Source: an uncultured Oscillospiraceae bacterium
Lineage (GTDB): Bacteria > Bacillota > Clostridia > Oscillospirales > Oscillospiraceae
Reading direction: 5' to 3'
NCBI GenBank assembly: GCA_934646005.1
Contig: CAKUED010000011.1
Coordinates: 1 to 64,000, forward strand
Length of the DNA stretch: 64,000 nucleotides
Shown here: positions 22,897 to 25,174 of the stretch, in pieces
Numbering within the stretch: position 1 is the first letter of the stretch
Layout of the letters: each line of letters starts with the position of its first letter
Notes under the pieces: model-generated
Seen by the model: only the letters and a program-made list of their open reading frames with translations
Told to the model about the DNA's origin: nothing
Databases searched by the model: none
Position numbers and translations under genes: made by a program

Positions 22897-22934
22897 AAAT
22901 GTCCCGCAGTTTCAAATGAAACTGCGGGGCATTT
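22897..22934. terminator. Bidirectional terminator between cysS and the PII-like gene
   Basis: An 18-bp stem (ATGTCCCGCAGTTTCA against TGAAACTGCGGGGCAT, one G-U pair) with an AA loop separates two convergent genes; flanking A- and T-rich bases allow use from either side. Confidence 0.8.
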
Positions 22935-22949
22935 GCAATATTCTGTTGT

Positions 22950-23618
22950 TTACTGCTCTTCACGTTCGCGCAGTCCGGCGACCGCCGAAATGGGCAGCGA
23001 GAAGCAGATCGCACCCGGTTTTGTGCCCGGGCCTGTCTGTTCGTTGATGGCGCGCATGATGGCGGCTTTTTCGTCCGCGTGCGCCACGATGTACACCACG
23101 TCCTTTTCCTGCGCAAGGCTCACGCCGAAAAACGTCTCGCTTTTCGCGCGCCCCGTGCCCTTCGCGTGCAGGACCGTGCCGCCGCCCGCGCCCGCGCTGC
23201 GCGCGGCCTCCATCACATAGTCGGAATATCCTTCATTCAAGATCACAACGATCAGTTCGTGTGCAAATTCCATGCTCGGTTTTCCTCCGATCTCAGCATT
23301 TTCGGTCAGATACGTCAGCGTTTTGCTGCCCGCCACGCTCTTGAGCGGCACAGACATCATCACGCCGTTGCCGGGGATGTCGATCATCAGCTTCCGCTTG
23401 GCGAGCTTGAATGCCTGCCGCGCCTGCTCGCCGGTGGCGATGGCGCTGACGACCGCCTTCTGCGTCGCGTCCAGCCCGTAGATGGACAGATGCTCGGATT
23501 TTGCCGTGCCCATGCCGAGCTTGGTCAGAACAAGGGGAATGCCGGTCTGCTTATAGATACCGTTCAGTGTTTCGGCATCGTCCCGGTCGGTGATCGCAAT
23601 TACATAATACAGCTCCAT
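22950..23618 (-). CDS. Tandem PII-like protein (two fused GlnB-type domains)
   Basis: A 222-residue cytoplasmic protein with two PII-like ferredoxin-fold domains, at about residues 1-97 and 118-218. The duplication is visible: KLGMGTAKSE (34-42) matches AKGTGRAKSE (152-161), and MMSVPLKSVAG (87-97) matches CFSLPISAVAG (205-215). Ordinary PII proteins are about 112 residues and trimeric; a fused pair would have to assemble differently. The conserved uridylylation tyrosine loop of GlnB is not evident. Its ATG overlaps the stop of the upstream DUF1538 membrane gene by one base, so the pair is coupled. Likely role: nucleotide- or metabolite-sensing control of that membrane protein; this is inference. 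The long upstream open frame is rejected because it lies inside the DUF1538 gene. Confidence 0.78.
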   Translation of the reverse strand: MELYYVIAITDRDDAETLNGIYKQTGIPLVLTKLGMGTAKSEHLSIYGLDATQKAVVSAIATGEQARQAFKLAKRKLMIDIPGNGVMMSVPLKSVAGSKTLTYLTENAEIGGKPSMEFAHELIVVILNEGYSDYVMEAARSAGAGGGTVLHAKGTGRAKSETFFGVSLAQEKDVVYIVAHADEKAAIMRAINEQTGPGTKPGAICFSLPISAVAGLREREEQ

Positions 23619-25174
23619 CACACAGCCTCCCACAGTTCGATGATCTCGTTTTCGCCGAACGCCAGCTCCGGCTGCGCCTCCGTCCTGGCGCGGGACTTGA
23701 GCACAAAAATGCCGCCCATGATCTGCACCGTGATGAGCGGCATCATCGCAACGAGCGCAACGATGCCGAATGCGTCGGTCATCACATTGCCGCCTGCCGC
23801 CGTGCACGCGCCCATCGCCAGCGGCAGCATGAACGTCGCCGTGAGCGGTCCTGACGCAACGCCGCCGGAGTCAAACGCAATGGCGGTAAATGTCGGCGGG
23901 ACGAAGAAGGTCAGCGCCAGCGCGATGAGATAGCCGGGCACGACGAAGTACAGGATCGGCGCGCCGGTGAGCACGCGGACCATCGCCAGCCCGTTTGCCA
24001 GCGCCACGGCGATGGACAGGCTCATGCCCATCGCCTTCGCCGAGATCGCGCCGGAGGTCAGCTCTTCGACCTGTTTGTTGAGGATGTACACAGCCGGTTC
24101 TGCATCAATGATGAACCAGCCCATGAGCATCGCCAGCGGCACGAGCAGCCACGAAAGCCCCTGTTCGACCATTGCGCCGCCGAGCACATAGCCAAGCGGG
24201 GAGAAGCCGACATTCACACCCGTGAGGAACAGCACAAGCCCCGCGAAGGTATAGAGCATACCGATGAGGATCTTCACAAACGGCAGCTTGCGCAGCCGCA
24301 GCGCAAAGACCTGGAACAGCAGAAAAAACACAAAGATCGGCAGCAGCGCCATGGCGATCTCCGCGAGATAATGCGGCAGCGCGTGCAGATAATCCGCGCC
24401 GAGCTGTACGCTTGTTTCGATCCGCGAGACCGCAATTTCCGCGCCCGCGGCAGTATCGGGGCGGTAGATGATGCCGAGCAGCATCACCGCCAGCACAGGA
24501 CCGATGGAGCACAGCGCCACGAGACCGAAGCTGTCAGACTTCGCGTTTTCGTCGCTTCGGATGGACGCGACGCCAACGCCGAGCGCCATGATAAACGGCA
24601 CGGTCATCGGACCCGTCGTCACGCCGCCGGAGTCAAACGCGACCGAGAGCATCCCGCGCTCGGACAAAAATGCGCCGAGAAATACGAGCGCGTAGCAAAT
24701 GATGAGCAGCCGCCGCAGTGAAATGCGGAACAAAATGCGCACCATGCACAAAACGAGGAACAGCCCCACGCCGACCGAGACCGTCAGGATCAGTGCGGTC
24801 TTATCAAGCGCCGGAACGTTCGCCGCAAGCACCTGCAGATCGGGCTCTGCCATGGTGATGGCGATGCCGAGCAGCAGGCTCACGACCAAAATGAACCAGA
24901 GCTTTTTGGATTTTGTCATGCGAGCACCGATGAGATTGCCGATGCGCGTCATCGACACCTCCGCCCCCAGCGTGAACATCCCCATGCCGAGAATCAGCAG
25001 GGCAGAGCCGAACAAAAACGACAGCATCAGCCCGACATCCACCGGCACGAGCACGAGACAGAGCCCTGCCACGATCGCCGAGACCGGCAGGACCGATGCC
25101 GCCGCTTCCTTGAGTTTTTCTACGAATACCTTTTGGCGCAAACCACTTCTTCCTTTCCAGTTTCTTTCCTCCAT
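23618..25174 (-). CDS. DUF1538 family membrane protein with internal duplication
   Basis: A 518-residue polytopic membrane protein of the DUF1538 family, a putative transporter with no proven substrate. Two homologous halves are separated by about 250 residues: AFDSGGVTTGP (179-189) repeats as AFDSGGVASGP (433-443); DSFGLVALCSI (214-224) repeats as DAFGIVALVAM (467-477); and a MAEP-like helix near 108 repeats as DAEP near 357. The AFDSGG motif could be a re-entrant or binding element. ATG 25174 lacks a good ribosome site; a TTG at 25141, preceded by GGAAAGGAAG, is an equally plausible start. The downstream partner is a tandem PII-like protein overlapping its stop. Confidence 0.82.
   Translation of the reverse strand: MEERNWKGRSGLRQKVFVEKLKEAAASVLPVSAIVAGLCLVLVPVDVGLMLSFLFGSALLILGMGMFTLGAEVSMTRIGNLIGARMTKSKKLWFILVVSLLLGIAITMAEPDLQVLAANVPALDKTALILTVSVGVGLFLVLCMVRILFRISLRRLLIICYALVFLGAFLSERGMLSVAFDSGGVTTGPMTVPFIMALGVGVASIRSDENAKSDSFGLVALCSIGPVLAVMLLGIIYRPDTAAGAEIAVSRIETSVQLGADYLHALPHYLAEIAMALLPIFVFFLLFQVFALRLRKLPFVKILIGMLYTFAGLVLFLTGVNVGFSPLGYVLGGAMVEQGLSWLLVPLAMLMGWFIIDAEPAVYILNKQVEELTSGAISAKAMGMSLSIAVALANGLAMVRVLTGAPILYFVVPGYLIALALTFFVPPTFTAIAFDSGGVASGPLTATFMLPLAMGACTAAGGNVMTDAFGIVALVAMMPLITVQIMGGIFVLKSRARTEAQPELAFGENEIIELWEAV

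Follow-up and report, generated by a model that had tools for sequence, protein, structure and literature searches.

The two genes at 22950..25174 of the window (the whole stretch of DNA analysed, 64,000 nucleotides) probably encode a UmpAB-like (DUF1538) antiporter of monovalent cations and protons, together with a PII-type regulator dedicated to it. UmpAB of Halomonas zhaodongensis is the sole characterised DUF1538 pair found, and the available part of the paper describes it as a DUF1538 heterodimer acting as a Na+(Li+,K+)/H+ antiporter (PMC5484666). Because DUF1538 and PII are partners in nearly every related genome examined, a protein family whose name refers to nitrogen control probably has its role in ion balance instead. 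All the genome comparisons below were drawn from genomes other than the window's own.

The Gene Pair

The genes and the signals around them are arranged as follows:

23618-25174, minus strand: membrane protein gene with two DUF1538 domains, 518 aa from ATG (reading frame)
23618..25141, minus strand: 507-aa form of the membrane protein, with a probable TTG start at 25141
22950..23618, minus strand: tandem PII-like protein gene, 222 aa (reading frame list, Pfam, structure model)
23616..23620, minus strand: TGATG, stop and start codons sharing one base (sequence)
23626..23631, minus strand: GGGAGG, resembling a Shine-Dalgarno site for the PII gene and lying within the final part of the membrane gene (by sight)
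22903..22928, minus strand: terminator-like hairpin in the gap between the PII gene and the cysS-like gene, which are convergent

The one-base overlap of the genes had been claimed from the sequence, and the TGATG does lie at that place, with both frames on the minus strand. Most of the 120 relatives listed have 507 aa, a length that would place the start of the membrane protein at the TTG at 25141. The pair is flanked by a cysS-like gene on one side and a polA-like gene on the other, both named from their translations. Within the window, no Rfam family was matched at its gathering score, the c-di-AMP riboswitch included.

The Partnership across Genomes

A search led by DUF1538 was positive in 139 of 398 genomes of one phylum, and in 134 of these 139 a PII domain adjoins DUF1538 (same strand, under 400 bases). 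Together with the existence of natural fusions (see below), this bears out the sequence-only reading, which had paired the transporter with a dedicated PII-type partner. As for the other five genomes, a contig end interrupts the locus in three, the tandem PII of G222 is encoded away from DUF1538, and the DUF1538 of G060 is decayed. A search of genome contigs led by PII gave 46 loci (one cut by a contig end), with DUF1538 directly upstream in all 46. A reverse search of the same 398 genomes, using a profile of single PIIs and E values up to 1e-9, found 142 genomes, 137 of them shared with the DUF1538 carriers; 254 have neither (Fisher P 5e-98, not corrected for kinship). Two genomes in this comparison have DUF1538 only, namely G060 and G308, where the locus is cut by a contig end, and five have PII only, three of these with weak matches (E 2.5e-12 to 7.6e-10). 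In G060, the DUF1538 match (L196) is interrupted by six in-frame stops, and the genome yielded no P-II domain.

The co-occurrence, which might have been confined to close relatives, reaches far past them: besides the 137 genomes, one Chelativorans and one Methylocystis plasmid (Alphaproteobacteria) carry two DUF1538 genes and a single PII gene in a row, the first DUF1538 gene of the Chelativorans plasmid being annotated as only 273 bases. Six further DUF1538 records labelled as phage are unannotated and probably bacterial (four from faeces and two from Listeria; OR847559, OR848780, and MT835770 are among the six).

Adjacency and fusion suit a structural subunit as well as they suit a regulator. 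PII might thus be a structural or assembly subunit that stabilises the transporter complex rather than a ligand-dependent switch, an explanation that we consider doubtful, although the near-invariant linkage and the natural fusions fit it. One point against it is the activity of UmpAB in E. coli: the available part of the paper (PMC5484666) makes no mention of PII, which suggests that PII is unneeded for transport.

The Membrane Protein and Its Apparently Inverted Halves

The features of the membrane protein, numbered in the 518-aa frame, are the following:

24425..25141, minus strand: first DUF1538 unit (A type), residues 12-250, 7 membrane segments, probably N-in/C-out
23675..24412, minus strand: second DUF1538 unit (B type), residues 255-500, 7 membrane segments, probably N-out/C-in
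24839..24850, minus strand: A-E-P-D, conserved acidic break in a membrane helix, unit A residues 109-112
24092..24103, minus strand: A-E-P-A, equivalent site in unit B, residues 358-361
24623..24640, minus strand: A-F-D-S-G-G, unit A residues 179-184
23861..23878, minus strand: A-F-D-S-G-G, unit B residues 433-438

Pfam DUF1538 matches the protein in two stretches (442.2 bits against a cut-off of 22.6), and its best NCBIfam matches are the UmpA and UmpB models, with scores below the equivalog cut-offs (161.7 of 490 bits and 127.1 of 500 bits). Judged by these scores, it is a DUF1538 member and not an UmpA or UmpB equivalog, and since they fall so far below the cut-offs, its substrate may differ from that of UmpAB. 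The two-fold repeat proposed earlier is well above chance: the halves align with each other over 200 residues at 29.5% identity (E 1.5e-23), with 83.2 bits compared to at most 23.9 in 100 shuffles. The recurring motifs, AFDSGG at 179 and 433 and D-x-F-G-[LI]-V-A-L at 214 and 467, were also correctly placed.

These observations leave room for another explanation, in which PII gates a transporter of some other substrate (e.g., an organic anion or a divalent metal), and the antiport of UmpAB is a side activity or one that is not shared. This explanation, which we consider somewhat unlikely, gains from the NCBIfam scores and from the comparison of the DUF1538 structure model with solved structures, which gave no clear match to any solved transporter fold. 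It is opposed by the acidic membrane residues, which are strongly kept: position 110 is Glu in 88% and Asp in 11% of A units, E359 is kept in 99% of B units, and D181 and D435 in 92% and 99%, respectively. Such residues suit cation/proton exchange. The available part of a machine-learning study lists DUF1538 among the domains informative for growth pH (PMC13255231).

In the tree, one branch (support 97) divides the DUF1538 domains into two types, A for the first and B for the second, and A lies upstream of B in all 159 loci having one of each. When homologous loops are compared, the even inner loops hold more K+R than the odd ones in every one of 171 A units (two being lone A pieces), and the odd inner loops hold more in 149 of 168 B units, with 8 opposite and 11 tied. 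Both marks of antiparallel pair families, an odd number of membrane segments and an opposite K+R bias, are present. Hydropathy plots have seven peaks, one of them weak, in lone DUF1538 units, while some peaks are merged in A and B; UmpA and UmpB were predicted to have seven segments each, according to the available part of their paper (PMC5484666). It would seem from the charge pattern that the two halves are probably inverted relative to each other in the membrane. The C end of a fused DUF1538 protein would then be cytosolic, as is required by the C-terminal PII fusion found in relatives.

The 15 lone DUF1538 units depart from the B-type charge pattern, and this was counted against the preferred explanation: they fall on the B side of the tree, and their bias is intermediate and mostly A-like (even loops richer in 11, odd in 4). 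In a check for dual topology, their mean charge bias was +3.3, with four near zero.

The Tandem PII Protein

Three regions of the 222-residue protein are distinguished:

23292..23618, minus strand: N-terminal PII domain, residues 1-109, with no Pfam match and a structural match to PII-like proteins such as SbtB
22962..23267, minus strand: C-terminal PII domain, residues 118-219 (Pfam P-II)
23115..23159, minus strand: T-loop region of the C-terminal domain, residues 154-168, pLDDT under 50 (structure model)

Pfam P-II matches the C half only (35.9 bits against a cut-off of 25) and leaves the N half unmatched. However, a confident single-chain structure model has the ferredoxin-like PII fold in both halves, so that the expectation of a PII fold in each half of the protein is upheld by the predicted structure. 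A Foldseek search with the PII model put chlorite dismutases and coproheme decarboxylases in the top rows (TM about 0.25-0.28), and GlnK1 from rank 23. The two halves align with each other above chance, with 23.9 bits compared to at most 18.1 in 100 shuffles, and a profile-profile comparison gave E 4.9e-8 over 97 columns. Only one of the two motifs thought to recur about 118 residues apart stood up: S-[VL]-P-[LI]-x-x-V-A-G (89 and 207) is in register, whereas AKSE, though its positions are right (39 and 158), is about two residues off register in the joint alignment. Since, moreover, its second-half copy is not kept in relatives, the AKSE repeat is probably a coincidence.

In GlnK, Q39, K58, K90, R101, and R103 are the ATP/2-oxoglutarate residues, and arginine 47 plugs AmtB. 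Among 128 C-type and 106 N-type non-redundant domains (GlnK numbering), the equivalents of R101, K90, and Q39 are replaced in both types, and an Arg at 103 occurs in 23-25% only; that of K58 is kept in 97% of C-type and 90% of N-type domains. The C-type domains retain the equivalents of G27, T29, G35, G37, K58, and F92 at 94-99%, while G27 and T29 are lost in about half of the N-type sequences. The tip of the T-loop (residues 46-50) is gapped in 98-100% of both types; a GlnK-style plugging of the pore is therefore probably not the mechanism. The closest solved sequence to the single PIIs is PDB 9p1x chain H (E 3e-8), which is named a P-II family nitrogen regulatory protein.

An alternative explanation, given that annotated records label the DUF1538-linked PIIs "P-II family nitrogen regulator", would be classical nitrogen signalling, with the PII halves sensing ATP and 2-oxoglutarate and the transporter carrying a nitrogen compound. 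The retention of K58 is consistent with this. Nevertheless, we find it highly improbable: the R101, K90, and Q39 equivalents are gone, the characterised relative is a cation antiporter, and in two (G332 and G393) of five genomes searched, Pfam P-II matches nothing but the DUF1538-linked PIIs. Most of the GlnK ligand residues being missing, the ligand of these proteins probably lies outside the classical nitrogen set, in line with the suggestion that it might not be nitrogen-related. The pocket bears on the structural subunit in both directions: the residues lost from both types (mostly including R103), and G27 and T29 in the N type, fit a subunit that no longer binds a ligand, while retention in the C-type domains seems to exceed what a scaffold would need.

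Architectures, Fusions, and Evolution

With D for a DUF1538 domain, P for a PII domain, and a space for a gene border, the complete clusters of the 139 genomes comprise DD PP (46), D D P (30), D D PP (16), D P (15), D D P P (8), and DD P P (2), as well as nine more that are rare or duplicated. In complete clusters having PII, a fused DD never occurs with fewer than two P, and the lone D (15) always occurs with one P. The 46 loci found via PII, taken with eight plasmid loci, are DD PP in 51 cases and D D P in two, with one cut.

In two genomes (L166 and L177), a PP gene precedes a gene whose single product, of 618 or 626 residues, is a DD-P fusion. With a total of three PII domains in each set, these two loci would be compatible with a single PII ring. 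The fused PII part is shared by 58 database proteins, 56 of them 592-626 residues long; all have DUF1538, and none has P-II in the Pfam column. This fused domain is divergent, with 15.9-16.7 of the required 25 bits in three proteins and no Pfam match in a fourth.

The sequence-only reading had gone on to propose a stoichiometry adapted to a pseudo-symmetric target. This part is not supported, since the halves look inverted, and inverted halves would offer PII no two-fold symmetric cytosolic face; moreover, a single PII accompanies two DUF1538 genes in 30 clusters. The idea that tandem PII matches tandem DUF1538 by two-fold symmetry was rejected in its simple form on account of the apparent inversion and of the 16 clusters in which PP accompanies unfused DUF1538. 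On the tree of 159 loci, DUF1538 was fused once and the number of PIIs changed five times, and with a single fusion event, there is no independent correlation of PII doubling with DUF1538 fusion. The N halves were placed on one branch by FastTree (support 97; 120/120 N, 0/120 C, and 1/47 single PIIs). In contrast, IQ-TREE with reduced sets placed single PIIs together with the N domains from unfused loci, apart from the N domains of fused loci, so two PII duplications, rather than a single origin, are possible.

Riboswitches and Other Neighbours

c-di-AMP riboswitches usually govern potassium and osmolyte genes. Such a riboswitch lies directly upstream of the DUF1538-PII operon in two of the 139 genomes (G188 and G105), on the same strand and 18 and 50 bases, respectively, from the longest possible first frame:

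L220:2249-2396: c-di-AMP riboswitch before a DD PP operon
L222:3571-3698: c-di-AMP riboswitch before a D D P P operon

By chance, 0.06-0.1 such cases would be expected (P about 0.002-0.004), an estimate that takes genes as equally likely targets, ignores kinship, and uses 145 rows, two of them below the cut-off. These two riboswitches fit K+/osmotic genes and thus argue against another substrate. Whole-Rfam scans covered 17 and 42 loci, with none of L043-L046 and only a minority of the loci from L047 on among them. They gave a single c-di-AMP case (L102) and one c-di-GMP-I riboswitch (L039), for which the nearest downstream start is, by eye, that of a different small gene. The other riboswitches, tRNAs, and rRNAs in these scans had no noted place before the operon. 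At L219:3491-3663, a c-di-AMP riboswitch lies directly after the DUF1538-PII operon and ahead of a gene for 498 aa.

A related PII lies directly before a CitMHS/ArsB-type transporter of 442-445 aa in three genomes (L227:4158-6092, L228:4494-6358, and L229:2828-4705). The best NCBIfam match of these transporters, MamN, is below its cut-off, and in G371 the pair is present with DUF1538 unmatched. Since the nearest tree relatives of these PIIs are the DUF1538-linked ones, the branch seems devoted to transporters, which favours the preferred explanation; CitMHS/ArsB being an anion group by its family names, the pairing also counts for the explanation with another substrate. In G106, a near relative of the single DUF1538-type PII lies downstream of PNTB, the NAD(P) transhydrogenase beta subunit (L230:1520-4650), and the DUF1538 locus is on another contig.

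How the Pair Might Work

The antiporter would be one chain of 14 segments, in which two inverted units of seven segments leave both ends in the cytosol, a topology suggested by charge bias, hydropathy, and the C-terminal PII fusion in relatives. The tandem PII would be made by translational coupling to the membrane gene and would dock at the cytosolic side of the antiporter, where it might raise or, more likely, lower transport in response to a small ligand inside the cell, which might be c-di-AMP or an adenine nucleotide. We infer the transport of Na+/K+ by this protein, the docking of PII, the sign of control, and the ligand; inhibition is likelier than activation because UmpAB was active in E. 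coli, as far as the available part of that paper goes, with no PII mentioned (PMC5484666). Several points count against an antiporter with its regulator: the link with the riboswitch is limited to 2 of 139 genomes and absent at the window, and the fused PII scores below the Pfam cut-off.

A docking site might be sought in the tail of the membrane protein:

23627..23644, minus strand: I-I-E-L-W-E, residues 511-516 in the low-confidence C-terminal tail, possible docking motif

Of the 96 tails of DD PP loci, 46 have the E-L-W pattern, which is missing from the other architectures counted, and [IV][IV][ED][LFM] occurs in 54 of the 96, eight times without the following W. This motif is a weak lead as a PII-docking site because the W-E codons double as the ribosome-binding site.

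A bolder version, and one that we think rather unlikely, is that this PII branch left nitrogen control to become a second-messenger gate of alkali-cation/proton antiporters. It would sense c-di-AMP or a related adenine nucleotide, set the K+/Na+ balance, and dock asymmetrically on an inverted-repeat transporter via its unequal tandem domains.

If DUF1538-linked PIIs do gate cation antiporters, many "nitrogen regulator" annotations are misleading, and experiments can be aimed straight at a new transporter-regulator pair, for which the natural fusions are ready-made constructs. The family has its apparently inverted-topology transporter at lone, paired, and fused stages, with one to three PII domains, which makes it a useful case of a soluble regulator tracking the evolution of a membrane protein.

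Comparison with Known Systems

The action of PII on transporters (GlnK-AmtB and SbtB-SbtA) and DUF1538 as an antiporter are already known. The DUF1538-PII pairing, the fusions, and the inversion were not found in the literature searched, which was mostly without subscription papers; the main texts naming DUF1538 do not mention PII proteins (one "PII" is part of a motif string), and PII has 0 occurrences in the main text of the UmpAB paper (PMC5484666). UmpAB resembles the window protein in being a DUF1538 pair with seven predicted segments in each member, and the halves of the window protein match the UmpA and UmpB models. The window differs in having one chain with a PII gene behind it, and in scores under the equivalog cut-offs. 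According to the available part of another paper, PII-NG, a PII branch, is genomically tied to the CzcABC metal efflux system, a cation/proton antiporter (PMC7726332). That antiporter is, however, of a different family, and no tandem or fusion is mentioned there.

As in the window, the PII of the GlnK-AmtB system is encoded beside its transporter (in the glnK-amtB order), on which GlnK acts. However, the transporter is unrelated, and the window PII is tandem and has no counterpart of GlnK residues 46-50. The N half of the window PII has SbtB and its relatives among its best structural matches. SbtB is a non-classical single-domain PII acting on SbtA, a cyanobacterial bicarbonate transporter of a different family from DUF1538. 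Finally, DUF606 and UPF0016 are antiparallel two-domain families that exist both as separate genes with opposite bias and as a fused inverted-repeat form. Unlike them, DUF1538 is accompanied by a soluble PII protein at almost all of the loci examined.
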